A stretch of DNA of 64,000 nt from Blastococcus sp. TF02A-30. GTDB lineage: Bacteria > Actinomycetota > Actinomycetes > Mycobacteriales > Geodermatophilaceae. The stretch is from positions 310,001 to 374,000 of the forward strand of contig NZ_QOHJ01000001.1 in NCBI RefSeq assembly GCF_003319185.1, in the 5' to 3' direction. Every line of letters begins with the position of its first letter. Position 1 is the stretch's first letter. A program made the translations under genes and the position numbers. Shown in pieces: positions 29,079 through 48,042 of the stretch. A model generated the notes under the pieces. The model saw only the letters and a list, made by a program, of their open reading frames with translations. It had not been told where the DNA came from and did not search any database.

Positions 29079-29966
29079 GTGAGCGAGCGCACGGTCCCCG
29101 CCGACCCCGACGAGCTGGCCGCCGCCCTGGAGCGGACCGGCTACCTGCCCGACGAGGGGCTGGCGACGGCCGCCTACCTGGCGCTGGCCATGCACCGGCC
29201 GCTGTTCCTCGAGGGCGAGGCGGGTGTGGGCAAGACCGCGCTGGCGCACGCGCTGGCCGAGGTCACCGGCCGGCCGCTGCACCGGCTGCAGTGCTACGAG
29301 GGGCTGGAGGCCAGCCAGGCGCTCTACGACTGGGACTTCGGCCGCCAGCTGCTGCACCTGCGGGCCGCCGAGGCCGCCCACGCGACCGGCGACACCGAGC
29401 AGCTGGAGGCCTCGCTCTACGACCGGCGGTTCCTGCTCGCCCGCCCGCTGCTGCGCGCGCTCGAGGACTCCCCCAGCGTGCTGCTGGTCGACGAGGTGGA
29501 CCGCGCCGACGACGAGTTCGAGGCGTTCCTGCTCGAGGTGCTCAGCGACTTCACCATCTCCATCCCCGAGCTCGGCACGGTGCGGGCGCAGACCCCGCCG
29601 CTGGTCGTCCTCACCTCCAACCGCACCCGCGAGGTGCACGACGCGCTCAAGCGGCGCTGCCTCTACCACTGGCTGCAGCACCCCGACTTCGACCGCGAGG
29701 TGGCGATCCTGCGGCGCCGGCTGCCCGACGTCACCGAGCAGCTGGCCCGCGAGGTGGCCCGGGCGACCGCAAAGCTGCGCACCCTGGACCTGCTCAAGCC
29801 GCCCGGCATCGCCGAGGCGATGGACTGGGCCACGGCGCTGCACACGCTGGGCGCGAAGGAGCTCGACCCCGACCTGGCCGCGCGCACGCTCGGCGCTGTC
29901 CTCAAGTACCGGGAGGACACCGAGCGGGTCCAGGGTGCGGTGAAGGAGGCCCTCTTCGGTGCCTAG
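29079..29966 (+). CDS. MoxR-type AAA+ ATPase (CoxD-like)
   Basis: A 295-residue AAA+ ATPase. Walker A is EGEAGVGKTALAHALAE, Walker B LLVDEVDRADDEFEAFLLEVLSD, sensor 1 VVLTSNRTREVHDALKRRCLYHWLQHPD, and the C-terminal lid follows. MoxR ATPases act as metallocluster or cofactor chaperones with VWA partners. In CO-dehydrogenase loci the equivalent CoxD helps form the Mo/Cu site. Here it leads an operon with a VWA protein, XdhC and MOSC, so maturation of a molybdenum hydroxylase is the likely job. A longer start at ATG 29067 is in frame. Confidence 0.9.
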   Translation: MSERTVPADPDELAAALERTGYLPDEGLATAAYLALAMHRPLFLEGEAGVGKTALAHALAEVTGRPLHRLQCYEGLEASQALYDWDFGRQLLHLRAAEAAHATGDTEQLEASLYDRRFLLARPLLRALEDSPSVLLVDEVDRADDEFEAFLLEVLSDFTISIPELGTVRAQTPPLVVLTSNRTREVHDALKRRCLYHWLQHPDFDREVAILRRRLPDVTEQLAREVARATAKLRTLDLLKPPGIAEAMDWATALHTLGAKELDPDLAARTLGAVLKYREDTERVQGAVKEALFGA

Positions 29967-31080
29967 GCGCGACGTGGTCGACACCGTGCTCGGCTTCGCC
30001 CGGACGCTGCGGACCGCCGGCGTGGCGGCCTCGCCCGACCGCGTCGAGGCGATGCTCGGCGCCCTCGGACACCTCGACGTGCTCCAGCCCTCCGACGTCT
30101 ACTGGGCCGGACGACTGACCCTCTGCTCGGGACCGGACGACCTGGATCGCTACGACGCCGCGTTCGCCGCCTGGTTCTCCGGCGAGCGCCCCCGGCGCTC
30201 GCGCCCGGCTCAGCACGAACCGCCGCAGCTGGCCGCATCGGCCCCGCTGGACGCCGGGACCGGCAGCGGGGACGACGACCCCGACACCCCCGACCTCGCC
30301 GCCAAGGCCAGCGCCGAGGAGCTGCTGCGGCACCGCGACGTCGCCGAGCTGACGATCGCCGAGCGGGAGCACCTGCGCCGGCTGTTCGCCCTGCTGGTGC
30401 CGGCCCAGCCCATGCGGCCGGCCCGCCGGCGCCGGCCGAGCTCCCTGGGGCAGGTCCACCCCGCCCGAACCGTCCGCCGGGCGCTGCGCGAGGGCGGTGA
30501 GGTGACCCGCCTGATGCACCGCCGGCGCCGGCCGCGCCCGCGCCGCGTCGTCCTGCTGGTCGACGTCTCCGGCTCGATGGCCCCCTACGCCGACGCGCTG
30601 CTGCGCTTCGCGCACGCGGCGGTGCGGGCCCGGCCCGCCTCGACAGAGGTGTTCACCATCGGCACCCGGCTGACCCGCGTCACCCGCGAGCTGCGGCTGC
30701 GCGACGCCGACCGGGCGCTCGCCGCCAGCGGCTCGGCGATCCCCGACTGGTCCGGCGGCACGCGGCTGGGCGAGGTGCTCAAGGCGTTCCTGGATCGGTG
30801 GGGGCAGCGCGGCACGGCCCGCGGCGCGATCGTCGTCGTCTGCAGCGACGGCTGGGAGCGCGGCGGCACGGAGCTGCTGGGCGAGCAGATGGCGCGGCTG
30901 CGCCGGCTCGCGCACGCCGTGGTCTGGGTCAACCCGCACAAGGGCCGCAGCGGCTACGAGCCGCTGACCGGCGGCATGCAGGCGGCGCTGCCGTCGATCG
31001 ACGCCTTCGTGGCCGGGCACAGCATGGCCGCGTTCGAGGAGCTGACAGGGGTGATCGCGCATGCGGGACGTTCTCGATGA
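29959..31080 (+). CDS. VWA domain protein (CoxE-like)
   Basis: A 373-residue protein with a C-terminal von Willebrand A domain. The MIDAS motif is VVLLVDVSGSMAPYADALL near 196-205. Later MIDAS parts are the Thr in WSGGTRLGEVL and the Asp in VVVCSDGWERGG. The N-terminal part is helical and charged, as in CoxE. VWA proteins pair with MoxR ATPases to act on a client enzyme. It overlaps the ATPase gene by 8 bases and the XdhC gene by 20 bases, which argues for tightly coupled expression. Confidence 0.9.
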   Translation: MPRRDVVDTVLGFARTLRTAGVAASPDRVEAMLGALGHLDVLQPSDVYWAGRLTLCSGPDDLDRYDAAFAAWFSGERPRRSRPAQHEPPQLAASAPLDAGTGSGDDDPDTPDLAAKASAEELLRHRDVAELTIAEREHLRRLFALLVPAQPMRPARRRRPSSLGQVHPARTVRRALREGGEVTRLMHRRRRPRPRRVVLLVDVSGSMAPYADALLRFAHAAVRARPASTEVFTIGTRLTRVTRELRLRDADRALAASGSAIPDWSGGTRLGEVLKAFLDRWGQRGTARGAIVVVCSDGWERGGTELLGEQMARLRRLAHAVVWVNPHKGRSGYEPLTGGMQAALPSIDAFVAGHSMAAFEELTGVIAHAGRSR

Positions 31081-33513: not shown

Positions 33514-33533
33514 GCTCCGCCCACCGCACGGCG

Positions 33534-33569
33534 ACGGCCGGCCGGGACCGCACGGTTCCGGCCGGCCGT
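33534..33569. terminator. Bidirectional hairpin terminator
   Basis: A 16-bp stem with one G-T wobble (ACGGCCGGCCGGGACC with its complement) and a 4-base loop, between the convergent lipoprotein and VWA genes. It ends 9 bases before the VWA stop. Confidence 0.82.
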
Positions 33570-33578
33570 CCCCGTTCC

Positions 33579-34586
33579 TCAGCCCAGGAGCTCCCGCACG
33601 GCCGACGGGGCCTGGGTGGGCCGGTGCAGGGCGGCGACCCGGCCGCCCCCGGCGGCGGCCAGCGCCGCGCAGGAGGTCATCGCCTCCTCCTCGGGCGACA
33701 GCGCCAGCACCTGGAGCCGTGCCGGGATGCGGGCCAGCGCCGCGGCGGCGGCCAGCGGATCGGGGCTCTCGGTGGGGACGCCGTCGGACAGGAGGAGCAC
33801 CTGCCGGTCGGCCGCCCGCGAGCGGGCGATCTGCGCCGCGGCCGTGCGCAGGCCCAGCTCGAGGTCGGTCGTGCCGCCGCCGCGCAGGTCGCACAGCCGG
33901 TCGACGACGACGTCGACCCGGGGATCGGCCGACAGCGGGCGCAGCACCACCGCGGTGGACCAGAACGCGACCACCCCGAGCTCGTCCCCCGGGCGCATCC
34001 GCTGCACCAGCGCGGCGGCGGTGAGCACGGCGGCGGCCAGCTCGTCCCCGGCCACGGACCCCGACGCGTCGACCAGCAGCACCGTCGCCCGGCCGGTGGA
34101 CCGCCACCCGCGGGTGTGCAGGTGCTCGGCCCGCCAGTGCGGTTCCGCCCCGCGGGCGGCCAGGGTGGCGTCGAGGTCGACGTCGGAGCCGGTCGGCTCC
34201 TGCCGCGTCACGACCCGGCTGGTGCCCGGGCGGTCGGCGGTGCCGCGGCGCGGCGTGCCGAGCGGCAGGCGGGCGGCCAGCGCCCGGGCGGCGGCCCGCA
34301 GGCCGGGGTCGAACGCCCGCGCGGCGGCGGCCAGCACCCGGGCTGCCGCATCGGGGTCGCGGGCCGCCAGGTCGGCCACCGCGGCGGCGTCGAGCTCGCC
34401 GGCCCGCGGCGAGACGGCGTCGAAGCCGGGGGTGCCGCGGGAGAGCTGGTCGCGGCTGCTGCGGCGCGCGGCCGAGGAGCGGAGGAGGTCGGCGACCGCC
34501 TCCGGGTCCTCCACCACCCGGGGCGCCCGCCCGCCGGGCGGCAGACCGCCGGACGACGGCACCGACCCGGAGGCCCCGGGCGTCAC
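33579..34586 (-). CDS. VWA domain protein in the alcohol dehydrogenase operon
   Basis: A 335-residue protein with a C-terminal VWA domain. The MIDAS is VLLVDASGSVAGDELAAAV near 168-175, with the later GGGTTDLELGL and LLLSDGVPTESPDP. The N-terminal 160 residues are Ala/Arg-rich and helical. It differs from the VWA protein at 30 kb in length and N-terminus. It overlaps the AAA ATPase gene by four bases; that gene in turn lies 19 bases after an NDMA-type alcohol dehydrogenase. I infer a client-activation pair like NorQ/NorD or CbbQ/CbbO acting on the dehydrogenase; this is not established. Confidence 0.85.
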   Translation of the reverse strand: MTPGASGSVPSSGGLPPGGRAPRVVEDPEAVADLLRSSAARRSSRDQLSRGTPGFDAVSPRAGELDAAAVADLAARDPDAAARVLAAAARAFDPGLRAAARALAARLPLGTPRRGTADRPGTSRVVTRQEPTGSDVDLDATLAARGAEPHWRAEHLHTRGWRSTGRATVLLVDASGSVAGDELAAAVLTAAALVQRMRPGDELGVVAFWSTAVVLRPLSADPRVDVVVDRLCDLRGGGTTDLELGLRTAAAQIARSRAADRQVLLLSDGVPTESPDPLAAAAALARIPARLQVLALSPEEEAMTSCAALAAAGGGRVAALHRPTQAPSAVRELLG

Positions 34587-35467
34587 GCTTTTCCCGGCTC
34601 CTCACCCGCCCGGCGCCAGATGTCGGCGACGACGTCCTCCACCGGCCGGGCGACGCCGTCGGCCAGGGTGACCTTGCCGGTCATCGCGGCCAGGGCGGCG
34701 TCGAGCCCGGTGCCGTCCTCGTGCGCCGCCGTCCCGCGCACGGTGGCGAGCTCCGCGGCGATCAGCACGGCGTCGATCGCGCCGCGCACGGAGGCGCCGA
34801 GGCGCAGCTCCGGGTGGTCGCGGGTGATCCGCACCGCCCGCACCGCCCGGGCGACGAGCGCGTCCGGCGCCCCGGTGGCGGCCGAGACCACGCGCCGCTC
34901 GGCCTCCTCGTCCTGGTAGCCCATCGCCACGCGGCAGGAGCGGTCGTACAGCGCCGGGGTGACCCGCGCGGTGCCGACGGCGTCGAACGGGTTCATGGCC
35001 GCGACCAGCCGGAACGTCGCCCGGGCGGCCACCGGGCCGTAGCGGGGCACGTGCATCTCCCGCTCGGACAGCACGCCGAGCAGGACGTTCATCGTCTCCT
35101 CGGGGACGCGGTTGAACTCCTCGACGTAGAGCAGCGCCCCCTCGGTCATGGCGCGGGTGAGCGGGCCGGGCACGAAGTTCTCGGGCCGGTAGTCCTCGGC
35201 CAGCACCCGGGAGGCGTCGTGGTGGCCGACCAGGCGGGTGGGGGTGAGCTCGGCGTTGCCCTCCACCAGCACCAGCGGGACTCCGGCGCCGTCGGCCAGC
35301 GACCGCAGCAGCGTCGTCTTCCCGGTGCCGGGCGGCCCCTCCAGGATGACGTTGCGCCCGGCGGACAGGGCCGCCGCCACGACCTCCGCCTCGCGGAGGC
35401 GCGCGACGACCCTGTCCCGGGCGACCCGCACCATGCCGCCGACGTCGAGCCGGGCGGCGGTGCTCAC
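34583..35467 (-). CDS. AAA+ ATPase of the MoxR/CbbQ/NorQ type in the alcohol dehydrogenase operon
   Basis: A 294-residue AAA+ ATPase. Walker A is LEGPPGTGKTTLLRSLAD, followed by VEGNAELTPTRLVGHHD, the loop FVPGPLTRAMTEGALLYVEEFNRVPEETMNVLLGVLSE with Walker B, and sensor 1 RLVAAMNPFDAVGT. It is closer to the CbbQ/NorQ pattern than the MoxR ATPase at 29 kb, so the two are not recent duplicates. It sits between the dehydrogenase (19 bases upstream) and the VWA gene (four-base overlap). The usual role of such ATPases is remodelling a metalloenzyme to activate it. Confidence 0.88.
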   Translation of the reverse strand: MSTAARLDVGGMVRVARDRVVARLREAEVVAAALSAGRNVILEGPPGTGKTTLLRSLADGAGVPLVLVEGNAELTPTRLVGHHDASRVLAEDYRPENFVPGPLTRAMTEGALLYVEEFNRVPEETMNVLLGVLSEREMHVPRYGPVAARATFRLVAAMNPFDAVGTARVTPALYDRSCRVAMGYQDEEAERRVVSAATGAPDALVARAVRAVRITRDHPELRLGASVRGAIDAVLIAAELATVRGTAAHEDGTGLDAALAAMTGKVTLADGVARPVEDVVADIWRRAGEEPGKA

Positions 35468-35486
35468 GGAAACGGGGAACCCCGGA

Positions 35487-36614
35487 TCAGTCGTAGACGA
35501 TGACGCCGCGCAGGTTCTTGCCGTCGTGCAGGTCGGCGTAGCCCTGGTTGATGTCGTCGAGCGTGTAGCGGGTGGTGATCAGCTCGTCGAGCTTGATCTT
35601 CCCCTCCTGGTAGAGCCGGAGCATCTTCTGCATGTCGGAGCTGGGGTTCTGGTCGCCGAACAGCGCGCCGCGGATCTCCTTGGTGAACAGCGCCAGCATG
35701 CTCGGGTTGATCGGGATGCCGACGTCGGTGAGGTCGCCCAGGCCGGTGATGACGACGCGGCCGCCCTTGCCGATGGCGTCGAACGCCTGGGCGACGTGCT
35801 CGCCCTTCAGCACCCCGACGGTGACCAGCGCCTTGTCGGCACCCTGCCCGTTGGTGACGCTGCGGGCGAAGTCGGCGGCCTCCTCGATGCTCGCGAAGGT
35901 CTCGGTCGCGCCGAGCTCCATCGCCTTCTCCCGCTTGAAGGCCACCGGGTCGACGGCGATGACGTGGCTGGCCCCGGCGTGCGCCGCGCCCTGGACGGCG
36001 TTGATGCCGATGCCCCCGACGCCCATCACGATCACCGTGTCGCCCGCGCGCACCTCGCCGGCCTGCACGGCGGTCCCCCAGCCGGTGCCCACCCCGCACC
36101 CCACGAGGCAGGCCACCTCGAGCGGGATGCTCTTGTCGATCTTCACCGTCGAGCGGATGTCGACCGTCGTGATCTCGGCGAACGTGCCGAGCCCGCACAT
36201 CTGGCCGACCTCCTCGCCGTCGGCGGTCGTCACGCGGAAGCTCGTCGCGTCGTCCCACCGGGAGCCCACCAGCAGGTTGGCGCCGGAGTCGCAGATGTAC
36301 TGCTGGCCGTTCGCGCAGTACCGGCAGCGGCCGCACCCGGGCAGGAACGAGAAGACGACGTGGTCGCCCTCCTCGTAGCCCTTCACACCGGGGCCGACCT
36401 TGGTGACGACGCCGGCACCCTCGTGCCCGCCCAGGAACGGGTACTTGCCGACGGGCATGTCCCCCGTGGCGATGTGGTCGTCGGAGTGGCACAGCCCGGA
36501 GGCGGCCAGCTTGACCTGCAGCTCGCCCTCCTGCGGGTCATCGACGACGAGGTCGACGACCTCCCACGAGCCGGGGGCCGAACGCATGATCGCGCCACGG
36601 GTGTTGACGGGCAC
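35487..36614 (-). CDS. NDMA-dependent (mycofactocin-linked) alcohol dehydrogenase
   Basis: A 375-residue zinc-dependent medium-chain alcohol dehydrogenase. Zinc and fold motifs are SGLCHSDDHIATGDMPVGKYPFLGGHEGAGVV (catalytic Cys and His) and the structural zinc cysteines GCGRCRYCANGQQYIC. The Rossmann loop is VIVMGVGGIGINAVQGAAHAGA. Overall it matches the N,N-dimethyl-4-nitrosoaniline-dependent group, which holds NAD(H) tightly and re-oxidises it through mycofactocin instead of exchanging it. The mft genes start about 2.2 kb away, which fits. GTG start behind GAGGAGG. It leads an operon with AAA and VWA genes. Confidence 0.9.
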   Translation of the reverse strand: MPVNTRGAIMRSAPGSWEVVDLVVDDPQEGELQVKLAASGLCHSDDHIATGDMPVGKYPFLGGHEGAGVVTKVGPGVKGYEEGDHVVFSFLPGCGRCRYCANGQQYICDSGANLLVGSRWDDATSFRVTTADGEEVGQMCGLGTFAEITTVDIRSTVKIDKSIPLEVACLVGCGVGTGWGTAVQAGEVRAGDTVIVMGVGGIGINAVQGAAHAGASHVIAVDPVAFKREKAMELGATETFASIEEAADFARSVTNGQGADKALVTVGVLKGEHVAQAFDAIGKGGRVVITGLGDLTDVGIPINPSMLALFTKEIRGALFGDQNPSSDMQKMLRLYQEGKIKLDELITTRYTLDDINQGYADLHDGKNLRGVIVYD

Positions 36615-36664: not shown

Positions 36665-36787
36665 GTCGCGCATGACCGGTTCGCACGTTATGGCCCAGGT
36701 CACACCGCGGGGAAGGGCCCTGCAACCTTCCCGGCGGGGCGAGCGCGCGCCGTGCAACGTGCAGCACCGCTCGGGGAGACTGGCGCG

Positions 36788-38254
36788 GTGCCCGCGGAGC
36801 CCGTCGTCGTCGTGGGTGCCGGGCCGGTCGGGCTGACCGCCGCGCTGCTGCTCGCGCGGCGCGGGCTGCGGGTCGTCGTCCTGGAGCGGCACCGCGCGCC
36901 CTACCCGCTGCCCCGCGCCGTCCACTTGGACGACGAGGTGTTCCGGGCGCTGCAGGCCGCGGGGGTGGCCGACGCGGTCGTCGCCCGCAGCCGCCCGATG
37001 GCCGGGCTGCGGCTGCTGGACGGCCGGCACCGGGTGCTGGCCGAGTTCGCCCGCCGTCCCGACGCCGGGCTGCACGGCTGGCCGCAGGGCTCGCTGGTGC
37101 ACCAGCCCGACCTGGAGGAGGTGCTCGCCGCGGCCGTCGCAGCGGAGCCGGCCGTCGAGCTGCGCCGCGGCGTGGAGGTCACCGGCCTGGGGCAGGACGA
37201 CGACGGCGTGACCGTGACGGCGACCGGGCGGGACGGTGGTGCGGACCGGTCCGTCCGCGCATCGGCGGTGCTGGGCTGCGACGGCGCCAACAGCACGGTG
37301 CGGGACCTGATCGGTGCGCGGATGCGCGACCTCGGCCCGGCCGACCGCTGGCTGGTGCTCGACGTGCGCTCCCCGGTGGAGCTGCCGGTGTGGCCCGGCG
37401 CGCACCAGGTGTGCGACTCGCACCGCCCGGCCACGTTCATGCCGGTCACCGGCGACCGGTACCGCTGGGAGAGCCGGCTGGCGCCGGGGGAGACGGTCGA
37501 CGACGCCACCACGCCCCGGCGGCTGGCCGAGCTGCTCGCGCCGGTGGACCCGGGCCTGGTGGAGGTCGTGCGCGCGGTCGAGTACACGTTCCGCGCCCAG
37601 GTCGCCGACCGCTGGCGGGCCGGCCGAGTGCTGCTCGCCGGCGACGCGGCGCACCTCTCGCCGCCGTTCATCGGCCAGGGCATGGGCCTCGGACTGCGCG
37701 ACGTGCACCAGCTGGCCTGGAAGCTCGCCGCCGTCCTGCGCGGGGACGTCGGCGAGGAGCTGCTGGACACCCACCAGCTCGAGCGGGAGCCGCACGCCCG
37801 CGCGCTGATCCGGGTCGCGCAGCTGCTGGGCCGGCTGATGACCGGCGGTGGGCGGGGTGGCGACGTCGCCCGCCGGGGGGTGCTGGCCGGCGTGCGCCGG
37901 CTCCCGGCGGTCGCCCGGCTGGCCACCGACAGCCGCACACCGCCCCTGCGCGGCGGGCCGCTCGTCGACCGCCGCGGGCGGGCGGGACGGCGGCTGGCGG
38001 GGACGCTGGTGCCGCAGCCGGAGGTGCTGGTCGACGGCCGCCCGTGCCGGCTGGACGACGTCCTCGGCGACGGCGCCGCGGAGCTCACCGCCGACCTCGA
38101 GGTGCGTCGCGACGACGGGACGGCGGTGCGGGTCGAGGACCCCAGCGGCGCCCTGCGGCGCTGGCTGGCCGGCGCGACGTCGGTGCGGATCCGCCCGGAC
38201 CGCATCGTGCGGGCCGCCGAAACCCGGTCGCGTGCGGGGCGCGCACGCGGCTAG
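36788..38254 (+). CDS. FAD-dependent aromatic monooxygenase (MhpA-like)
   Basis: A 488-residue group A flavoprotein hydroxylase. The N-terminal dinucleotide motif is VVVVGAGPVGLTAALLLARRGLRVVVLERH. The DG motif is LGCDGANSTVRDLIGA near 160, and the second FAD motif is RVLLAGDAAHLSPPFIGQGMGLGLRDVHQLAWKL near 285. The C-terminus has a thioredoxin-like region. The closest named type is 3-(3-hydroxyphenyl)propionate hydroxylase. No ring-cleavage gene adjoins it, so substrate is unsure. It is divergent from the alcohol dehydrogenase. Confidence 0.87.
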   Translation: MPAEPVVVVGAGPVGLTAALLLARRGLRVVVLERHRAPYPLPRAVHLDDEVFRALQAAGVADAVVARSRPMAGLRLLDGRHRVLAEFARRPDAGLHGWPQGSLVHQPDLEEVLAAAVAAEPAVELRRGVEVTGLGQDDDGVTVTATGRDGGADRSVRASAVLGCDGANSTVRDLIGARMRDLGPADRWLVLDVRSPVELPVWPGAHQVCDSHRPATFMPVTGDRYRWESRLAPGETVDDATTPRRLAELLAPVDPGLVEVVRAVEYTFRAQVADRWRAGRVLLAGDAAHLSPPFIGQGMGLGLRDVHQLAWKLAAVLRGDVGEELLDTHQLEREPHARALIRVAQLLGRLMTGGGRGGDVARRGVLAGVRRLPAVARLATDSRTPPLRGGPLVDRRGRAGRRLAGTLVPQPEVLVDGRPCRLDDVLGDGAAELTADLEVRRDDGTAVRVEDPSGALRRWLAGATSVRIRPDRIVRAAETRSRAGRARG

Positions 38255-38853: not shown

Positions 38854-40059
38854 TCAGCCCTCCGGGGAGTCGGCTCCGGGGACCGCGCCGAGGCGCCGTT
38901 CGAAGGCCGGGGGGACTACCAGGTCGTCCGGGGAGAACTGGTCGATCGAGGTGTGGCCGAGGCCGATCATGGCCGAGCCCAGGCCGTCCCGGAGCAGGTC
39001 CAGGACGTTGCCGACGCCGGCCTCGCCGTTGGCGGCCAGGCCCCACAGGTAGGCGCGGCCGATCATGACCGCCCTGGCCCCCAGGGCCAGCGCCTTGGCG
39101 ACGTCGCCGCCGCGCCGGATGCCGCCGTCCATCAGCACCTCGACGTCGTCGCCCACGGCGTCGGCGATCACCGGCAGCGCCCGGATCGCGGCGGGGGTGC
39201 CGTCGAGGTTGTTGCCACCGTGGTTGGACACCGAGATCGCGGTGACGCCCGCGTCGACGGCCCGCTTGGCGTCGTCGACCCGCATGACGCCCTTGAGCAT
39301 GAACGGTGCCTCGGGCCACTGCTGGCGCAGCCACGCGACGTCGTCCCAGGTGGGCATCGGGGACTGCATCCACTGGCCGTAGGCCTCGAAGAACGTGGGG
39401 GCCGGGGCGCCGGGCGTCGGCACCATGTTGGGCACCGTCAGGTCGGGCAGCTTTCGGGTCTTCGCGAACTCCCACAGCCAGCGCGGCCTCAGCGCCACCT
39501 GCGGGGCGTAGCGGCGGACGGCCTCGAAGTCGATCCGCTCGGGGATGAACGGGCTGCCCCAGTCGCGGCCGTAGGAGAACGACCAGTCCAGGGTGGCGAT
39601 GATGCCGGCCGCGCCGGCGCTGCGGGCCCGCTCCACCTTCGCGGCCATGACGTCGCGGTCCCCGACCCAGTAGAGCTGGAAGAAGGTCTTCGGGTTGGCC
39701 GCGATGACCTCCTCCATCGGCTTGCTGGCCATCGACGACAGCCCCATCGCGGTGCCCCGGGAGGCCGCGGCCCGCGCGACGGCCACCTCGCCGTCGGGGT
39801 TGACGGCCTGCACGCCGGTGGGGCTGATCAGCACCGGGAGGGAGATCTCCTGGCCCATCACCGTGGTCGCCATCTGCTTGTCGTTGGCCAGCCCGGCCGT
39901 GTGCGGGGCGAAGCCGAGCTCGGCGAAGGCCGCGATGTTGTCGTCGACGGTGAGGCCGCGCTCGGAGCCGGCCACGAGCGCGCCGTACACGCCCTTGGGC
40001 AGCCGCTTCTTCGCCCGGCGCTGCGCCTCGGCCACGGTCTCGAACCACGCGTTCGCCAC
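38854..40059 (-). CDS. mftD: Pre-mycofactocin synthase MftD
   Basis: A 401-residue FMN enzyme of the L-lactate dehydrogenase/glycolate oxidase family that oxidatively deaminates the Val-Tyr-derived AHDP intermediate to pre-mycofactocin. Markers are WFETVAEAQRRAKKRLPKGVYGALVAGSERGLTVDDN, typical of MftD, SLPVLISPTGVQAVNPDGEVAVARAA, ISVSNHGGNNLDGTPAAI (active-site His), and VLMDGGIRRGGDVAKALALGARAVMIGRAYLWG. GTG start with GGAGG upstream. It is divergent from the coupled SDR across a gap holding a palindrome also found before mftA. Confidence 0.95.
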   Translation of the reverse strand: MANAWFETVAEAQRRAKKRLPKGVYGALVAGSERGLTVDDNIAAFAELGFAPHTAGLANDKQMATTVMGQEISLPVLISPTGVQAVNPDGEVAVARAAASRGTAMGLSSMASKPMEEVIAANPKTFFQLYWVGDRDVMAAKVERARSAGAAGIIATLDWSFSYGRDWGSPFIPERIDFEAVRRYAPQVALRPRWLWEFAKTRKLPDLTVPNMVPTPGAPAPTFFEAYGQWMQSPMPTWDDVAWLRQQWPEAPFMLKGVMRVDDAKRAVDAGVTAISVSNHGGNNLDGTPAAIRALPVIADAVGDDVEVLMDGGIRRGGDVAKALALGARAVMIGRAYLWGLAANGEAGVGNVLDLLRDGLGSAMIGLGHTSIDQFSPDDLVVPPAFERRLGAVPGADSPEG

Positions 40060-40105
40060 TTGCCGACCTCCGTCGTCGCCCGCCGCGCCGGCCCTCGACG
40101 CCGGG

Positions 40106-40120
40106 TGGCACTGAGTGCCA
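40106..40120. promoter_or_regulatory. Candidate MftR operator in the mftD/SDR promoter gap
   Basis: Palindrome TGGCACTGAGTGCCA (7-bp arms around one base). It matches the site at 41660-41674 in 14 of 15 bases, and 15 of 16 with the preceding G. It lies in the 133-base gap between the divergent mftD and SDR starts, 46 bases from mftD and 72 from the SDR gene, so it could control both. Confidence 0.75.
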
Positions 40121-40192
40121 AGCTACCGCACGGCGAGACCCACGCCACAGTTCGCGGGCGCCCCGCCCGCGTGGACGGAGGAGGACGAACGC

Positions 40193-41014
40193 ATGAGCGG
40201 ACGGCTGGACGGCAAGGTCGCCTTCATCACCGGGGCCGCGCGCGGCCAGGGGCGGGCGCACGCGGTGCGACTGGCCCGGGAGGGCGCCGACGTCCTCGCC
40301 CTGGACATCGCCGGGCCGCTGCCCGCGGGCGTCCCCTACGACCCGGCGACGCCGGAGGACCTCGCCGAGACCGCCCGGCTGGTGGAGGGAACCGGCCGGC
40401 GGGTGCTGACCCGCGAGGGCGACGTCCGCGACCTCGAGGGGCTCCAGGCCTTCGTCGCCGAGGGCGTGGCGGCCTTCGGGCGGCTGGACGTCGTCGTCGC
40501 CAACGCCGGCATCTGCATCCCGATGACCTGGGACGAGACGACGCCGCAGGTCTTCCAGGACACGCTGGACATCAACGTCACCGGCGTCTGGAACACGGTG
40601 ATGGCCGCGGCGCCGCACATGGTCGAGGCCGGCAACGGCGGCTCGATCGTGCTGACCAGCTCCTACGCCGGCAAGAAGATGCAGCCGTTCATGATCCACT
40701 ACACGACCAGCAAGCACGCGGTCACCGGCATGACCCGCGCGTTCGCCGCCGAGCTCGGCAGGCACCGCATCCGGGTCAACTCCATCCACCCCGGCGGCGT
40801 GGCCACCCCCATGGGCGGCGGCGACATGATCACCGCGATCGAGCGCACCAACGCCAGCAACCCGAAGCTGGCCGCCATGGGCACGCCCTTCATCGACCCG
40901 GGCTACGCCGAGGCGGACCAGATCGCCGACGCGGTCGCGTTCCTGGCCTCCGACGAGGCGTCGTTCATCACCGCCGAGCACCTGTCGATCGACGGTGGGT
41001 CGCAGTACTTCTGA
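40193..41014 (+). CDS. Mycofactocin-coupled SDR family oxidoreductase
   Basis: A 273-residue short-chain dehydrogenase of the mycofactocin-coupled subgroup, which keeps a non-exchangeable nicotinamide. Markers are KVAFITGAARGQGRAHAVRLAREGADVLALDI (TGxxxGxG), the extended loop PLPAGVPYDPATPEDLAETARLV typical of this subgroup, VANAGI, catalytic SSYAGKK and YTTSKHA, and HPGGVATPM. Start ATG behind GGAGGAGGACGAAC. It is divergent from mftD, and its last 47 bases overlap the end of the oppositely oriented mftR gene. Substrate is probably a small alcohol or terpenoid; unknown here. Confidence 0.92.
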   Translation: MSGRLDGKVAFITGAARGQGRAHAVRLAREGADVLALDIAGPLPAGVPYDPATPEDLAETARLVEGTGRRVLTREGDVRDLEGLQAFVAEGVAAFGRLDVVVANAGICIPMTWDETTPQVFQDTLDINVTGVWNTVMAAAPHMVEAGNGGSIVLTSSYAGKKMQPFMIHYTTSKHAVTGMTRAFAAELGRHRIRVNSIHPGGVATPMGGGDMITAIERTNASNPKLAAMGTPFIDPGYAEADQIADAVAFLASDEASFITAEHLSIDGGSQYF

Positions 41015-41603
41015 GCGCGGGGAAGCCGCCGGCGAGCTCGTCGAAGGCGCGGTGCAGGTGCACCCGCAGGGACGACGGCTCGTCGGCGAGCCACGCCTCG
41101 AAGGCCGCCGTAGCGGCCGCCCGGCTGGTCCCGGCGACGAGGCGGGGGAGCAGCCCGCCGGCGTCGTCCCCGGTGCACCGGGCGACGAACTCGGCCACCA
41201 CCCGGTCGACCTCGGCGTAGCGCAGCTGCGAGTGGGCCTGCAGGGCCGGCTCGGAGAGGATCAGCCGCATCCGCTCGCGCAGCACCGGCAGGTCGTCGGC
41301 GCCGTAGTCGTTGGCCTCGACGTAGGCGTCGCAGATGGTGCGGACCGGGGCCTGTGCCGGGTCGGCGGCCCGCAGCAGCCCGTCCAGCCGGGCGACGTGA
41401 CCGGTGAAGTCGCCCCACACGGCGTCGGCCTTGGTCGCGTAGTGGCGGAAGAAGGTGCGGCGGCTGATGCCGGCGGCCTCGGCCACCTCGTCGGCGGTCA
41501 CGGCGTCGAACCCGCGGCGGGCGAACAGCGCCAGGGCCGCGCGGTCCACCCGGGCGCGGGTCTCCGCGGCCGCCGGCCCCGTCTCCGTCACGCCGCTGAT
41601 CAT
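40968..41603 (-). CDS. mftR: TetR-family mycofactocin regulator MftR
   Basis: A 211-residue TetR-type repressor. The N-terminal HTH reads ARVDRAALALFARRGFDAVTADEVAEAAGISRRTFFRHYATKADAVW. The C-terminal ligand domain has LPVLRERMRLILSEPALQAHS and ends in a polar tail. In mycobacteria MftR represses the mft genes and is released by long-chain acyl-CoA. The ATG at 41603 is preferred because it places the HTH at the usual distance. The gene runs opposite to mftA and shares its upstream region, where a 15-bp palindrome sits 57 bases before this start. Its 3' end overlaps the SDR gene. Confidence 0.93.
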   Translation of the reverse strand: MISGVTETGPAAAETRARVDRAALALFARRGFDAVTADEVAEAAGISRRTFFRHYATKADAVWGDFTGHVARLDGLLRAADPAQAPVRTICDAYVEANDYGADDLPVLRERMRLILSEPALQAHSQLRYAEVDRVVAEFVARCTGDDAGGLLPRLVAGTSRAAATAAFEAWLADEPSSLRVHLHRAFDELAGGFPALRSTATHRRSTGARR

Positions 41604-41659
41604 GCCGGTCGACCGCCCCGGGTGGATGCTGGTCCCGGCCCGGGAACCCTCCTTGCCGG

Positions 41660-41674
41660 TGGCACTGGGTGCCA
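41660..41674. promoter_or_regulatory. Candidate MftR operator between mftR and mftA
   Basis: Palindrome TGGCACTGGGTGCCA, extended by one more pair (G before, C after). It is nearly identical to the site in the mftD/SDR gap. It is 57 bases from the mftR start and 58 from the mftA start, in the right place to repress both. Confidence 0.78.
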
Positions 41675-41732
41675 CTAGCGTGGGCCGCCCGAGGGTGACG
41701 CCGCTCACCCGCTCGATCTCCAGGGAGTGCAG

Positions 41733-41852
41733 ATGCCCGAGACGCAGCAGGACACCCGGCCCGCCGAGACGACCGCCCCCGCCGCCGAGGAGCTGGTGGA
41801 GGAGTCGCTGGTCGAGGAGGTCTCCATCGACGGCATGTGCGGCGTCTACTGA
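41733..41852 (+). CDS. mftA: Mycofactocin precursor peptide MftA
   Basis: A 39-residue precursor, too short for most gene finders. The acidic leader (PAAEELVEESLVEEV) is the recognition part for MftB, and the core ends SIDGMCGVY with the invariant IDGMCGVY tail. MftC decarboxylates and cross-links the final Val-Tyr pair; MftE then releases Gly-AHDP-type dipeptide. The ATG is preceded by CAGGGAG. It is the first gene of mftA-mftB-mftC and ends 7 bases before mftB. Confidence 0.97.
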   Translation: MPETQQDTRPAETTAPAAEELVEESLVEEVSIDGMCGVY

Positions 41853-41859
41853 GCCGACG

Positions 41860-42147
41860 ATGACCGTCCCGGTCGAGGTGGCCTTCGACCCCGGTCTCCC
41901 CTGGCAGCGCGCCCGCTCGGTCGCGCTCCGGCCGGAGCCCTTCGGCGCGCTGGTCTACTCCTTCCGCAACCGGAAGCTGTCCTTCCTCAAGTCGAGGACG
42001 CTCGTCGCCGTCGTCGAGGCGCTGGCCGAGCACCCGTCCGCCGACGCCGCGCTGACCGCGTGCGGCGTGACCGACGCCCAGCGGGGTGCCTACGTGAAGG
42101 CGCTGGCCGACCTCGCCCGTTCCGAGATGATCGAGGTGCGCGCATGA
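41860..42147 (+). CDS. mftB: Mycofactocin peptide chaperone MftB
   Basis: A 95-residue RiPP recognition element (PqqD-like winged helix) that binds the MftA leader and presents the core to MftC. It shows VALRPEPFGALVYSFRNRKLSFLKSRTLVAVVEALAEHPSADAAL, the conserved MftB stretch. The ATG lies 7 bases after the mftA stop, and its stop overlaps the mftC start (ATGA). Confidence 0.95.
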   Translation: MTVPVEVAFDPGLPWQRARSVALRPEPFGALVYSFRNRKLSFLKSRTLVAVVEALAEHPSADAALTACGVTDAQRGAYVKALADLARSEMIEVRA

Positions 42148-43358
42148 CCGCCGTCGTCCCCCAGCGTCCCGTGGGCGGGCGGCTGGTCGACCAGTTCGAG
42201 TACGGCCTGGACGCCCCGATCTGCCTGACCTGGGAGCTCACGTACGCCTGCAACCTGGCGTGCGCGCACTGCCTGTCCTCCTCCGGACGGCGCGACCCGC
42301 GCGAGCTGTCCACCGCCGAGGCCGAGGCGGTCATCGACGAGCTGCAGCGGATGCAGGTCTTCTACGTCAACGTCGGTGGCGGCGAGCCCACGGTCCGGCC
42401 GGACTTCTGGCACCTGCTCGACTACGCCATCGGGCACGACGTCGGCGTCAAGTTCTCCACCAACGGCGTGAAGCTGGACAAGGCGCGGGCCGCGCAGCTG
42501 GCGGCGACCGACTACGTCGACGTGCAGATCTCCCTGGACGGCGCCACCGCCGAGGTCAACGACCGCGTCCGCGGCACCGGCTCCTACGCCACGGCGATCC
42601 GCGCCCTGGAGAACCTGGCCGAGGCCGGGATGAAGGACTTCAAGGTCTCCGTCGTCGTCACCCGCGAGAACGCGGGGCAGCTCGACGAGTTCAAGGCGCT
42701 CACCGACTCCTTCGGCGCCCAGCTGCGGATCACCCGGCTTCGCCCCTCCGGCCGCGGGGCCGACGTCTGGGACCAGCTGCACCCGACGGCGCAGCAGCAG
42801 CGCGAGCTGTACTCGTGGCTGCTGGCCAACGGCGACGGCGTCCTCACCGGCGACTCGTTCTTCCACCTCTCCGCGTTCGGCGAGGCGCTGCCCGGCCTCA
42901 ACCTGTGCGGCGCCGGGCGGGTGGTCTGCCTGATCGACCCGGTCGGCGACGTCTACGCCTGCCCGTTCGCCATCCACGAGAACTTCCTCGCCGGCAACGT
43001 CCGGGACGAGGGCGGCTTCCAGCGGGTGTGGCAGCAGAGCGAGCTGTTCGCCGACCTGCGCAGCCCGCAGACCGGGGGCGCCTGCACGAAGTGCGCGCAC
43101 TTCGACGCCTGCCGGGGCGGCTGCATGGCGGCGAAGTTCTTCACCGGCCTGCCCCTCGACGGGCCCGATCCCGAGTGCGTGCAGGGCTACGGCGAGGCCG
43201 CGCTGGCCGCCCGCGACCTCGACCTGGCGACGCCGCGCAGCTCCGTCGACCACTCGCACACCGGGCCGGTGCGCGGCCAGCCCACGCTGCTCGGTATGCC
43301 GGCGATCCCCGCCAAGCCGTGCAACGAGTCACCGCTGGCGGGAACCGGCCTGGGCTAG
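42144..43358 (+). CDS. mftC: Mycofactocin radical SAM maturase MftC
   Basis: A 404-residue radical SAM/SPASM enzyme that oxidatively decarboxylates the C-terminal Tyr of MftA and forms the Val-Tyr carbon-carbon bond. The SAM cluster motif CNLACAHC is at 36-43, followed by [13 protein letters not shown] and STNGV. The SPASM auxiliary cluster cysteines are in [27 protein letters not shown] and [22 protein letters not shown]. The C-terminus ends KPCNESPL-type, as usual. Its stop shares a CTAG with the stop of the convergent PPOX gene. Confidence 0.97.
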
Positions 43359-43834
43359 AGGTCGACCTTCTCGTTCTTCCCGGCGTCGATGCGCTCACCG
43401 GTGGCCTTGGCCTTCACGAAGCTGAACGCCGTCGCGAGCCGCCCGCCGGGGCTGTCCCAGTACTCCGCGGAATCGCCCTCGACCTTCAGCAGCACGACCT
43501 CCGGGTCCTCGGGGCCGTTCGGGAACCAGGCCTCGACCGCGCCGTTCCACAGCTCCTTCTTCTTCGCGAGGTCTTCGACGACGCGGGCGTGACCGGTCAG
43601 CGAGACCCAGGTGCCGCCGGACCCGATGCCCACGTTGACCTGCGGCGACGCGGTGATGTGCGCCACCGGGGAGGAGCTGCGCTCGGCGAAGAACCACAGG
43701 TCGCCGTCGAACTCGACCTCCTGCAGCGTCATCGGGCGGCTGGTCAGCTTCCCCCCGGGCATGACGGTGGTGAGGAAGCCGAAGCGCTCCCCCTTGATCA
43801 GCTCGGCGACCTTGCGGGTGTCCTCTGCGCTCAT
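43355..43834 (-). CDS. PPOX-class flavin-binding protein (general stress protein 26-like)
   Basis: A 159-residue pyridoxamine-5'-phosphate-oxidase-fold protein: [52 protein letters not shown] then [43 protein letters not shown]. This pattern matches the Pyridox_oxase_2/GSP26 group, which binds FMN, FAD or F420; the exact cofactor is unknown. It sits inside the mycofactocin region between mftC and mftE but on the other strand, so a role in that pathway is only a possibility. Confidence 0.87.
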
Positions 43835-43871
43835 GCGACGCACGTGCCCACGCCGGGTGGCCGCGACACCC

Positions 43872-44248
43872 TCACACCGCGTCGAGGTAGCGCCAGGCGC
43901 CGTCCTCGCGCAGGAACCGGCTGAGCTCGTGCTGGTCGCCCGAGCGGCCGCCGGCGGCCCAGTGCGCGCGGAACTCCACGGTGCCCTCGGTGGTGAGCAT
44001 GCCGCCGCCGGTCGTGGCCAGGACCTCCAGCCCGGTCCAGCGCAGGTCCGGGTCCAGCGCGAGGGAGGACGGCCGGGTCCTGGAGTGCAGGTGGCCAGCA
44101 GGTACGCCGCGTCGCCGACGGCGAAGGCGCTGTACCGCGAGCGCATCAGCTGCTCGGCCGTCGCCGCGGCCGCGGTGCCCTCGTGCAGCCGGCCGCAGCA
44201 GTCGGCGTAGGTCGGGCCGGTGCCGCACGGGCAGGGACGGGGTGCCAT
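43872..44248 (-). pseudogene. YchJ (UPF0225, SEC-C) protein with a one-base frameshift
   Basis: The gene begins ATG at 44248 with the zinc-binding SEC-C motif [19 protein letters not shown], then the conserved [24 protein letters not shown]. At about 44097 the frame is lost: the next conserved block, [45 protein letters not shown] to the end at 43872, is in another frame. Restoring one G (TGC to TGGC) rebuilds the family's expected T-W-H-S. No slippery heptamer is present, so programmed shifting is unlikely. Either a recent mutation or a sequencing error. Confidence 0.8.
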
Positions 44249-44281
44249 GGGGCCAGTCTGCCGTCGTGCGAGGCTGCGCCG

Positions 44282-44977
44282 GTGACGTCCCTCGGGAGCA
44301 CCACCTGGCCGGAGATCCCCGAGCGGCCGCTGCTCGTCGTCCCGCTCGGCGCGGTCGAGCAGCACGGGCCGCACCTGCCGCTGGCGACCGACACCGCGCA
44401 GGCCGAGGCGGTGGCCCGCGCCGCGCTGCCCGACCTGGGCCGGGCGTTGCTCGCCCCGGCGCTGGCCTACGGGGCGAGCGGCGAGCACGAGGGGTTCTCC
44501 GGGACGGTGTCGCTCGGCACCGCGGCGCTGACGGCGGTGCTCGTCGAGTACGGGCGCTCGGCCTGCCGGTGGGCGGGGCGGCTGCTGGTGGTCAACGGGC
44601 ACGGGGGCAACTACGACGCCCTGCGCGCGGCGGTGCCCCAGCTGCGGCAGGAGGGGCGGGACGTCGCCTGGTTCCCGCTCGCCGTGCCGGGAGCGGATGC
44701 GCACGCGGGGCGCACCGAGACGTCGCTGATGTTGCACGTGGAACCGGCTGGGGTGCACGAGGACCGGGCGGAGGCGGGGGAGACGGCGCCGCTCCGCGAG
44801 ATCCTGCCGCGGATGCGGGCCGAGGGCGTGCGGGCGGTCAGCCCGAACGGCGTGCTCGGCGATCCGGCCGGCGCCTCGGCCGCGGAGGGTGCGCGGCTGG
44901 TGGCCGAGCTGGCCGGCCGGCTGGCCGGAGCGGTGCGGGAGTGGCGGGTGGACCCCGCCGGGCGGCTCGTCGGCTGA
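44282..44977 (+). CDS. mftE: Mycofactocin peptidase MftE (creatininase family)
   Basis: A 231-residue metal-dependent amidohydrolase of the creatininase family that cuts the modified C-terminal dipeptide from MftA. Metal ligands are visible in [21 protein letters not shown] (Glu, His, Asp), [13 protein letters not shown] and [14 protein letters not shown]. It opens with LGSTTWPEI, the usual MftE start. Length is normal. GTG start at 44282. It is separated from mftC by two reverse-strand genes, so it needs its own promoter. Confidence 0.94.
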
Positions 44978-44999
44978 GCGCCCGGCGGGGTCCGGTGGA

Positions 45000-45998: not shown

Positions 45999-46020
45999 GC
46001 GGTTCTCCTCCGGGAACGAC

Positions 46021-46039
46021 TCAGGTAAGGCGAACCTAA
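46021..46039. promoter_or_regulatory. IdeR/DmdR iron box
   Basis: TCAGGTAAGGCGAACCTAA matches the 19-bp iron-box consensus TTAGGTTAGGCTAACCTAA at 16 positions and keeps the dyad. It overlaps the expected promoter of the siderophore-binding lipoprotein, predicting repression by an IdeR/DmdR regulator when iron is plentiful. Confidence 0.85.
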
Positions 46040-46108
46040 GCACACGTCGATCACGGGGAGGTCACCGCCGGTCCCGCGGCCTCCCGGCGCCCGGGAGATG
46101 ATCGCGGT

Positions 46109-46657
46109 GTGACCGCAGCGGATCTCGAGGGCTGGCTCGTCGTCGTCGACCTCCAGAACGTGTTCGGCGACGAGGGCTCGCCGTGGACCGCGCCGCGCTT
46201 CGAGGAGGCCCGCGCCCGGGTCCGGCGGCTCGTGGCGGCCTACGGCGACCGCGTCGTCTGGACCCGCTTCGTCGCGCCGGCCGAGCCGGTCGGGGCCTGG
46301 AAGGAGTACTACGAGCAGTACGACTTCGCGCTCCAGCCGCCGGACTCCCCGCTCTACCAGCTGGTCGAGGACCCGGGCGACGCGCCGGTCGTCGACGCCA
46401 CGACGTTCGGCAAGTGGGTGCCGGAGCTGATCGACGTCGTGGGCCAGGGGCCGCTCACCGTCGTCGGCGTGGCCACCGACTGCTGCGTGCTGTCCACCGT
46501 GCTGCCGGCCGCCGACGCCGGGGTGCCGGTGCGCGTGGTCGGCGACGCGTGCGCCGGGTCCTGCGACGAGGACCACGAACGCGCGCTGCGGATCATGGGC
46601 CTGTACGCCCCGCTGGTGGAGATCACCTCCACCGACGAGGTGCTGGCCGGCCGATGA
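46109..46657 (+). CDS. Isochorismatase-family cysteine hydrolase
   Basis: A 182-residue cysteine hydrolase. The catalytic triad is visible as Asp in WLVVVDLQNVF, Lys in TFGKWVPEL and Cys in GVATDCCVLSTVLPAADAG. Members hydrolyse isochorismate, nicotinamide or N-carbamoyl amides, and the substrate cannot be read from sequence. Its stop overlaps the start of mftF (ATGA), so it is translationally coupled to a mycofactocin gene. The iron box upstream faces the other way but lies within its promoter gap. Confidence 0.88.
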   Translation: MTAADLEGWLVVVDLQNVFGDEGSPWTAPRFEEARARVRRLVAAYGDRVVWTRFVAPAEPVGAWKEYYEQYDFALQPPDSPLYQLVEDPGDAPVVDATTFGKWVPELIDVVGQGPLTVVGVATDCCVLSTVLPAADAGVPVRVVGDACAGSCDEDHERALRIMGLYAPLVEITSTDEVLAGR

Positions 46658-48042
46658 GCCCGTCGGGCCGGCTGCCCGACGGGTTCGCCGTCCGGCTCGA
46701 CCCGGCGGTCCGCCGGCGGGACGGCGGTGCGGTGCTGCTCGGCGGCTCCCCCCTGCGGCAGCTCCGGCTGTCGCCCCGCGCCCGAGCGCTGCTGGCCGGG
46801 GACCGGCTGGTTGTCCGGGACGACGTCACCGCCGCGCTGGCCGCCCGGCTGCTCGACGGGGGGCTGGCGCACCCCGACCTGGCGCCGGTCCCGGTCGACG
46901 GCGTCACCGTCGTCGTCCCGGTCAAGGACCGCCAGGCGGAGCTGGCCCGGCTGCTGGCCGCCCTGCGCGCGGACCCGGCGACGGCGGAGCTGCCCGTCGT
47001 CGTGGTCGACGACGGCTCGGCGGTGCCGGTGACCGCCGACGGCGCCACGGTCCTGCGGCTGGCCGCGAACCGGGGCCCGGCCGCCGCCCGCAACGCCGGG
47101 CTGCGCGCGGCGACCACCCCCTTCGTCGCCTTCCTCGACAGCGACTGCGTCCCCCGGCCGGGGTGGCTGGGCCGCCTGCTGGCGCACCTGGCCGACCCTC
47201 GGCTGGCGGCCGTCGCCCCGCGGATCACCGCGCTGCCCGGCCGCGGCTGGGCGGCGCCGTACGAGGCGGCGGTGAGCGCGCTCGACATGGGCCCGCGCCC
47301 GGCGCCGGTGCGGCCGCTGTCCGCGGTCGCGTACGTGCCCAGCGCCGCGCTCCTGGTCCGGCGCGCGGCGCTCGGCGACGGTTTCGACGAGTCGATGCGG
47401 GTGGCCGAGGACGTCGACCTGGTCTGGCGGCTGACCGCTGCCGGGCAGCGGGTGCGCTACGACCCGGCGGCGGAGGTCGCGCACGAGCACCCCGGGACGA
47501 CGGCGGGGTGGCTGCGCCGCCGCGCCTTCTACGGCACCGGCGCCGCGCTGCTCGCCGCCCGCCACGGCAGCGCCGTCTCCCCGCTGGTGATCGCGCCGGA
47601 GACGGCGGCGACCTGGGCGCTGGCGCTCGCCGGCGGGAGATGGGGCCGGCTCGCGGCGGCCGCCTGGCTGGCCCGGACGTCGGTCCGCCTCGCCGCCCGG
47701 CTGGCCGGCCCGGACGAGCCGCCGCCGGTCGGGCTCACCGCGGGGCTGGTCGTCCGGGGCGCGGGGGCCGCGGGCGCCGCGCTGGCGCGCTCGGTCACCC
47801 GGCACCACTGGCCGCTCGCCGTCGTCGCAGCGCTGGTCTCGCGGCGGGGCCGGCGGGTCGTCGTCGCGGTGGCGGTCGCCGACGGGCTGCTGGCGTGGCG
47901 GCCGCACCGCGGGCGGGTGGGACCGGTCCGTTTCACCGTCGCCCGGCGGCTGGAGGACCTCGCCTACGGGGCGGGGCTGTGGGCCGGGGCGGTGCGGGCC
48001 CGCGACCCGCGGGCGCTGCTGCCGGCGCGCCCGCCGCGGTGA
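46654..48042 (+). CDS. mftF: Mycofactocin glycosyltransferase MftF
   Basis: A 462-residue GT2-type glycosyltransferase that adds beta-1,4-glucose units to pre-mycofactocin. The N-terminal 85 residues form the MftF-specific head (LPDGFAVRLDPAVRRRDGGAVLLGGSPLRQLRLSP). The GT-A domain has VTVVVPVKDRQAELARLLAAL, VVVVDDGSA, NRGPAAARNAGLRAA, the metal-binding FLDSDCVP, and MRVAEDVDLVWRL (ED near 255). The C-terminus has weakly hydrophobic helices. It follows the cysteine hydrolase with an ATGA overlap. Confidence 0.94.
   Translation: MSPSGRLPDGFAVRLDPAVRRRDGGAVLLGGSPLRQLRLSPRARALLAGDRLVVRDDVTAALAARLLDGGLAHPDLAPVPVDGVTVVVPVKDRQAELARLLAALRADPATAELPVVVVDDGSAVPVTADGATVLRLAANRGPAAARNAGLRAATTPFVAFLDSDCVPRPGWLGRLLAHLADPRLAAVAPRITALPGRGWAAPYEAAVSALDMGPRPAPVRPLSAVAYVPSAALLVRRAALGDGFDESMRVAEDVDLVWRLTAAGQRVRYDPAAEVAHEHPGTTAGWLRRRAFYGTGAALLAARHGSAVSPLVIAPETAATWALALAGGRWGRLAAAAWLARTSVRLAARLAGPDEPPPVGLTAGLVVRGAGAAGAALARSVTRHHWPLAVVAALVSRRGRRVVVAVAVADGLLAWRPHRGRVGPVRFTVARRLEDLAYGAGLWAGAVRARDPRALLPARPPR

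Follow-up and report, generated by a model that had tools for sequence, protein, structure and literature searches.

A MoxR-type AAA+/VWA gene pair that accompanies mycofactocin-associated dehydrogenases and its possible role as their activase

Results

An AAA+/VWA pair is linked to mycofactocin-associated dehydrogenases

A 64,000-nucleotide stretch of the genome of Blastococcus sp. TF02A-30 (contig NZ_QOHJ01000001.1, positions 310,001 to 374,000; hereafter the window) carries genes for a MoxR-type AAA+ ATPase and a VWA protein directly behind the gene of a mycofactocin-associated alcohol dehydrogenase (ADH). Our genome surveys demonstrate that this module is real, conserved, and nearly restricted to genomes with mycofactocin genes. 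Mycofactocin-dependent dehydrogenases are well supported as its clients by gene context, and the explanation that we find best, at about evenly balanced chances, is that the two proteins form a NorQ/NorD-like activase that opens these nicotinoproteins for the loading or repair of nicotinamide adenine dinucleotide (NAD).

The three genes lie on the reverse strand and have GTG start codons. The first (35487..36614, start at 36614) encodes a zinc ADH of 375 residues, dependent on N,N-dimethyl-4-nitrosoaniline (NDMA), that scores 583.8 bits on the TIGR03989 model (cut-off 440) and has two complete zinc sites, with C42, H64, E65, and C173 at the catalytic site and the structural cysteines at positions 94, 97, 100, and 108. 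After a gap of 19 bases (35468-35486) follows the gene of the 294-residue ATPase (34583..35467, start at 35467), which matches AAA_5 (expectation value, E, 7e-29), passes no NCBIfam cut-off, and contains the Walker A motif GPPGTGKT, the Walker B motif LLYVEE, and an AMNPFD motif. The ATPase gene overlaps by 4 bases with that of the VWA protein (33579..34586, start at 34586; 335 residues), which matches VWA_2 (1.8e-12) and VWA_CoxE (3.1e-10) and consists of a helical N-terminal part of about 110 residues and a VWA domain whose metal ion-dependent adhesion site (MIDAS) is formed by D173-A-S175-G-S177, T240, and D268. This is the arrangement that a first-pass annotation of the same DNA had described, and its coordinates are confirmed; the spacing suggests that the three genes are cotranscribed. 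The strong hairpin reported at the end of the unit was also found by folding energy on the reverse strand, at about 33533..33570 (−51.1 kcal/mol; z = −4.1, 200 shuffles), but it lacks a T-run and a scan for consensus terminators at this site found none. The hairpin may be shared by the operon and the convergent lipoprotein gene.

The gene order is conserved in Actinomycetota and beyond

The first-pass annotation had asked whether the order might be unique to this strain. It recurs across Actinomycetota and in three genomes of Chloroflexota. Genome contigs were scanned with a query profile made from a 20-sequence ATPase alignment, which gave 559 relatives, and the best 80 were used as loci, a choice that biases this survey to close relatives. 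An ADH gene stands directly upstream in 69 of the 80, comprising 65 loci with the order ADH-AAA-VWA and 4 in which the contig ends after ADH-AAA, before a VWA gene is visible. In 5 further loci the upstream gene encodes a mycofactocin-coupled short-chain dehydrogenase/reductase (SDR) in the order SDR-AAA-VWA. Another 5 (L096, L101, L119, L122, and L143) lack a same-strand dehydrogenase gene immediately upstream; of these, L119 has a divergent TIGR03989 ADH and L101 a mycofactocin SDR further upstream. One more locus (L137) is cut upstream by the contig end. Record titles among these loci include Geodermatophilaceae, Actinomycetospora, Microbacteriaceae, and Acidimicrobiales.

We compared these loci with 249 genomes from the window's order, where a flank of 1.5-2 kb was considered for each copy of the ATPase. 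The ATPase was found in 56 genomes as 75 copies (the window's own genome is included in both counts). An ADH lies directly upstream of 28 copies and an SDR directly upstream of 17, and a convergent ADH behind the VWA gene (9 copies) or a divergent SDR (1 copy) brings those beside such a dehydrogenase to 55 of 75. Seven of the 17 upstream SDRs were checked with NCBIfam, and the remainder were assigned by BLAST identity, L242 on a 22-residue match only; of the convergent ADHs, 2 of 9 were checked with NCBIfam. Among 201 Chloroflexota genomes, a sample built around G282 (in which L122 lies and which carries the ATPase without mftC), 6 matched the ATPase, 4 of them strongly. Three of these 4 have mftC and an ADH gene directly before a fused AAA-VWA gene; G282, the fourth, and the two weak matches have neither mftC nor an ADH gene so placed. 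Only two plasmid records contained the ATPase at a threshold of E 1e-30, both from Rhodococcus, and in both annotated mycofactocin-coupled SDRs adjoin the MoxR ATPase and VWA genes: the R. qingshengii plasmid has a 4-base overlap between its SDR and ATPase genes, and in R. ruber the pair is flanked by two SDRs on the other strand. Because of the conservation counts in the 80 loci, the order sample, and a sample of the phylum described below, the order is more than chance, and we rejected a chance neighbourhood as its explanation.

Several loci depart from the simple arrangement. Tandem TIGR03989-like ADH genes precede AAA-VWA in L105, L106, L108, L111, L121, L126, L128, L129, L135, L140, and L144, as if two ADH clients shared one pair; these loci mostly diverge from the mft genes, and the first copies mostly form one clade. 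In L101, L120, L124, and L131, AAA-VWA stands inside the mft cluster, between the dehydrogenase gene and mftE and/or mftF. L106 and L124 come from metagenome bins titled Bifidobacterium breve that carry mft clusters; on the trees they group with uncultured Actinomycetota, and the titles look wrong.

The ATPase is nearly restricted to genomes with mycofactocin genes

The first-pass annotation had proposed a survey of co-occurrence with the mft genes alongside that of gene order. In a sample of 246 Actinomycetota genomes, the ATPase was present in 19, mftC in 28, and a TIGR03989 ADH above the cut-off in 27. Setting aside two weak ATPase matches (G032, E 8e-50; G043, E 4e-62) leaves 17 carriers, including the window's genome; mftC is found in 16 of these compared to 12 of the 229 other genomes (p = 9e-17), or in 16 of 19 carriers when the weak matches are included, and the TIGR03989 ADH in all 17. 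Among the 249 genomes of the order sample, 122 have mftC, which is found in 55 of 56 carriers versus 67 of 193 others; one family of this sample (f2), presumably Mycobacteriaceae, has one carrier genome, G643. Fifty of the 75 copies lie less than 30 kb from mftC, among them, at less than 28 kb, 10 of the 20 copies without a neighbouring dehydrogenase. As for the 80 best loci, the local DNA of 35 contains a gene of mft biosynthesis and 39 of the other 45 have mftC elsewhere in the genome, so that 74 are mft-positive; the 6 loci without mft genes are all from metagenome-assembled genomes. Two genomes contain more than one mftC match: G249, the genome of L072, has three on different contigs, and G074 has two of equal score, one towards each end of a single contig, which probably reflects overlap in the assembly.

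The pair accompanies dehydrogenases of two unrelated folds

The SDRs that take the place of the ADH belong to mycofactocin families. All 10 SDRs scanned at the loci, encoded by the first or second gene upstream, and all 8 scanned in the order sample (7 upstream, 1 divergent) exceed the NCBIfam cut-off of TIGR03971 or TIGR04504. On the ATPase tree, where the SDR loci and L119 were given their partner labels by hand, the partner type changes 4 times, or 3 times when L101, with its more distant SDR, is set aside. This suggests that one kind of pair serves two unrelated dehydrogenase folds. The SDR fold has no catalytic or structural zinc, and firm binding of NAD is a known property of the NDMA-dependent ADH family. 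The traits common to both partner folds, each mycofactocin-associated by family model, are mycofactocin as acceptor and firmly bound NAD. For TIGR03971 SDRs of mycobacteria, nuclear magnetic resonance tests showed no exchange of the NAD, which is buried (PMC5264612).

To compare ADHs with and without the pair, we used a tree of 79 linked, 31 unlinked, and 1 divergent ADH together with 12 first copies of tandem pairs; two rows had been removed as duplicates, and the ADH of G230 is missing since an earlier removal of identical sequences had taken out its second copy. The linked ADHs are spread over the tree, with 15 label changes on the best tree, 11 of which are forced by well-supported branches, and linkage has therefore been gained and lost frequently. 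At the eight zinc-site positions, 80 linked and 31 unlinked ADHs all have the same residues. W179, N205, V207, and F226, four positions chosen after the fact from all ADH columns, differ between linked and unlinked enzymes, and all of them fall in the NAD-binding part according to the alignment to human ADH. We rejected them as a residue signature of linked ADHs, since they fail a tree-aware test with 4 independent pairs, and keep them as a lead.

The ATPase and the VWA protein resemble NorQ and NorD

The Walker A motif is present in 103 of 103 aligned ATPase rows and the Walker B pattern in 102, the exception being the CoxD outgroup. The predicted structure of the window's ATPase (predicted local distance difference test, pLDDT, 92) has NorQ or CbbQ as its top 21 of 21 Foldseek matches in the PDB (E 3.7e-17 to 9.8e-13), and the single-chain model of the VWA protein (pLDDT 87) has NorD as its top match. 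In the VIA-align rows of the VWA model we saw generic VWA folds and no NorD, which does not exclude NorD. The MIDAS residues D173, S175, S177, T240, and D268 are invariant in 41 sequences, and the profile match to NorD begins before the VWA domain. AAA and VWA are fused into one polypeptide at 10 loci and at three Chloroflexota loci with an ADH gene upstream, and these fusions together with the gene overlap give indirect support for a physical complex of the two proteins. Two consecutive AAA copies, the second fused to VWA, occur in L054, L057, and L122, the first two of which follow mycofactocin-coupled SDRs; an ATPase that works as a pair, perhaps in mixed rings, is conceivable at these loci.

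The window's ATPase remains below the cut-offs of the GvpN model TIGR02640 (95.4 bits; cut-off 266.8) and of NF047784, the MadB (CoxD) model (65.4 bits; cut-off 475). The flanking genes scanned encode the ADH, a flavin monooxygenase, a lipoprotein, and Mft proteins, and thus gave no linkage to nitric oxide reductase, norCB not having been searched genome-wide.

A complete mycofactocin gene set lies next to the unit

The window contains all of mftA to mftF, each of the six above its model cut-off, and these genes together with a mycofactocin-coupled SDR span 38854-48042, a region that the first-pass annotation did not mention. On the reverse strand is mftD (38854..40059; pre-mycofactocin synthase, TIGR03966, 683.5 bits), followed by the SDR oxidoreductase on the forward strand (40190..41014; TIGR03971, 344.2 bits, cut-off 300) and, on the reverse strand, the TetR-type regulator mftR (40968..41708; 222.5 bits, slightly below the cut-off of 224.9). 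The forward strand then carries mftA (41727..41852), the mycofactocin precursor ending in IDGMCGVY, mftB (41878..42147; peptide chaperone), mftC (42186..43358, start approximate; radical SAM maturase), mftE (44183..44977; creatininase-family peptidase), and mftF (46183..48042; glycosyltransferase). The position of these genes places the three-gene unit a few kb from the makers of the cofactor that its ADH should use. The genome has a single member of the ATPase family and one further TIGR03989 ADH above the cut-off, on contig C38, where no pair was found within the surrounding 20 kb. The model TIGR04542 (GMC oxidoreductases), used for linkage to MftG, gave no match anywhere, controls included.

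A second AAA+/VWA pair, of the CoxD/CoxE type, is found at 29106-31080, followed by an XdhC/CoxI-type gene that ends this unit at 32182; with 268 bits on the MadB model, its ATPase also falls short of the cut-off of 475. The coxE and coxD genes also occur downstream of ADH-AAA-VWA in L067-L075, L077, L078, and L098. A flavin monooxygenase gene (36752-38254), divergent from that of the ADH, is kept nearby in L066-L078, L080, and L098, and a gene for a Bcr/CflA-type efflux transporter (48059-49363) directly follows mftF.

Discussion

In the AAA+/VWA pair described here we see a MoxR module with a new client class. Among the open-licence papers listed by our searches, judged by title and abstract opening, we found no description of an AAA+/VWA pair tied to mycofactocin or NDMA enzymes, and the words "AAA" and "chaperone" were absent from the consulted part of the founding mycofactocin analysis (PMC3023750). 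The first-pass annotation had likewise noted no described activase for this class of dehydrogenase.

How such an activase might work can be outlined from its relatives and its partners. The ATPase would form a hexamer to which the VWA protein is attached as an adaptor, with the MIDAS site facing the client. The VWA protein would bind the dehydrogenase, here the adjacent zinc ADH and in relatives also mycofactocin-coupled SDRs, and pulling driven by ATP would briefly open it. The non-exchangeable NAD could then be inserted at assembly, or alternatively a damaged or inhibitory occupant such as ADP-ribose could be released and replaced, which would restore turnover with mycofactocin. ADP-ribose provides a precedent as the hidden inhibitor of a different ADH, from which an accessory protein removes it (PMC12926040). 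Formation of the complex, binding of the client, and the NAD site as the point of action are parts of this scheme that we infer, the NAD step from what both client folds share. The association suggests that these dehydrogenases, whose NAD is tightly bound, need mechanical help to become or to stay active. The first-pass annotation had considered an activase or a loader of metal or cofactor, for insertion or resetting of nicotinamide or of zinc; nicotinamide is the reading that we prefer. A broader proposal, which we advance tentatively as a possibility, is that this is the first MoxR/VWA machine devoted to an organic redox cofactor: it would load or repair the NAD buried in mycofactocin-dependent dehydrogenases of any fold.

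An activase would bring an ATP-dependent part into the mycofactocin system and make testable how nicotinoproteins obtain or renew a NAD that does not exchange. If true, the known clients of MoxR/VWA pairs, so far metal or sugar-phosphate sites, would come to include NAD enzymes, and there would be a practical reason why recombinant mycofactocin dehydrogenases may be poorly active when made without partners.

A number of observations weigh against an activase of the NAD site. The pair is absent from 67 of the 122 mftC genomes of the order sample, as well as from 12 of 28 in the phylum sample and, at the thresholds used, from 10 of 13 in the Chloroflexota sample, and unlinked ADHs are present in carrier genomes. 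Since more than half of the mycofactocin genomes of the order lack it, the pair is not universally required. Twenty of the 75 copies in the order sample have no mycofactocin-type dehydrogenase in the flank, and the scanned neighbours of unpaired copies include MFS, AMP-binding, amidase, NlpC/P60, and flavin enzymes. The sequence profile of the AAA family ranks midasins first among PDB entries, followed by 2r44, above NorQ and CbbQ. For the VWA protein, generic VWA folds score close behind NorD with the structural model, and the profile made from 41 proteins places NorD no higher than fourth among its PDB matches (E 1.3e-6). In the tree-aware test of the four ADH columns, limited to 4 independent pairs on well-supported branches, no sign test was significant. 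Lastly, the relatives that have been characterised biochemically act on metals, which they insert, or on sugar phosphates, which they release, and not on NAD.

An alternative that we consider unlikely is that the pair serves mycofactocin itself, in the delivery, docking, or release of this bulky glycosylated cofactor or in coupling to the next electron carrier. This would agree with the near-confinement of the pair to mycofactocin genomes and with its location among the mft genes, between mftC and mftD in L059-L061 and before mftE and mftF in L120 and L124. However, the pair is missing from many genomes that have both mftC and dehydrogenases of this kind. Growth of M. smegmatis on alcohol requires the mft genes and MSMEG_6242 (PMC6529628). 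The 20 copies with diverse neighbours, together with the stress roles ascribed to some MoxR proteins, would be explained by a general chaperone or stress module that travels with alcohol-oxidation genes and has its true client elsewhere; the repeated pairing with two dehydrogenase folds and the near-absence outside mycofactocin genomes make this improbable.

A role of the pair in providing the dehydrogenase with zinc or exchanging it, in the manner of NorQD or CoxD, is in our judgement very improbable. The window's client is a zinc enzyme with both sites complete, and metal roles are known for relatives, NorQD acting on iron (PMC13036017) and CoxD helping to build a metal cluster. Yet the same pair accompanies mycofactocin-coupled SDRs, and the zinc-site residues of ADHs are the same with and without it. 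Because the two partner folds are unrelated and one is free of zinc, zinc loading is unlikely as the shared function, and we rejected it as such on account of the SDR clients; of the activase or loader first proposed, the dedicated dehydrogenase partner is upheld by the conserved order and the co-occurrence with mftC, and the loading of zinc is not. A part in mycofactocin biosynthesis, to which the location of the pair within mft clusters or beside them in a number of lineages might point, is hardly credible and was rejected, as most mft genomes of the order and Chloroflexota samples lack the pair and its immediate neighbour is usually a dehydrogenase.

Compared to known systems, the activase that we favour comes closest to NorQ/NorD, which share a MoxR-type AAA+ protein with a MIDAS-bearing VWA partner and are the best Foldseek matches of both window proteins. 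NorQD, which belongs to nitric oxide reductase, inserts iron; a finger of its VWA protein reaches into the pore of the ATPase, and the proposal is that the finger is twisted by ATP turnover so that the client opens (PMC13036017); the MIDAS residues are needed for client activity, not for binding the ATPase (PMC9976466). The window pair differs in that it adjoins mycofactocin dehydrogenases, in identity (about 25% for AAA and 21% for VWA in the fold matches), and in a VWA protein of 335 residues with a small helical N-terminal part, whereas NorD has 646 in the solved entry. CoxD/CoxE (MadB/MadC) have the same AAA+/VWA organisation and are represented in the window by their own pair, but the window's ATPase reaches 65 bits on the MadB model versus 268 for this Cox-type neighbour. 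Two accessory proteins are alike in role and not in kind. The Nudix activator Act of Bacillus methanol dehydrogenase relieves inhibition of an ADH by removing ADP-ribose (PMC12926040), but it is an unrelated hydrolase without an ATPase and its client is a type III, iron-type ADH. MftG is almost confined to mft-bearing genomes (PMC11778925), but it is a flavoenzyme that oxidises mycofactocin, whereas the AAA+/VWA pair is no oxidoreductase. CbbQ/CbbO belong to the same AAA+ class as the window's ATPase and act as a rubisco activase that remodels the enzyme and frees its active site. Their client and VWA architecture are different, and no rubisco gene was found among the window proteins scanned; if our proposal is true, the pair would play for nicotinoproteins the part that rubisco activase plays for rubisco.

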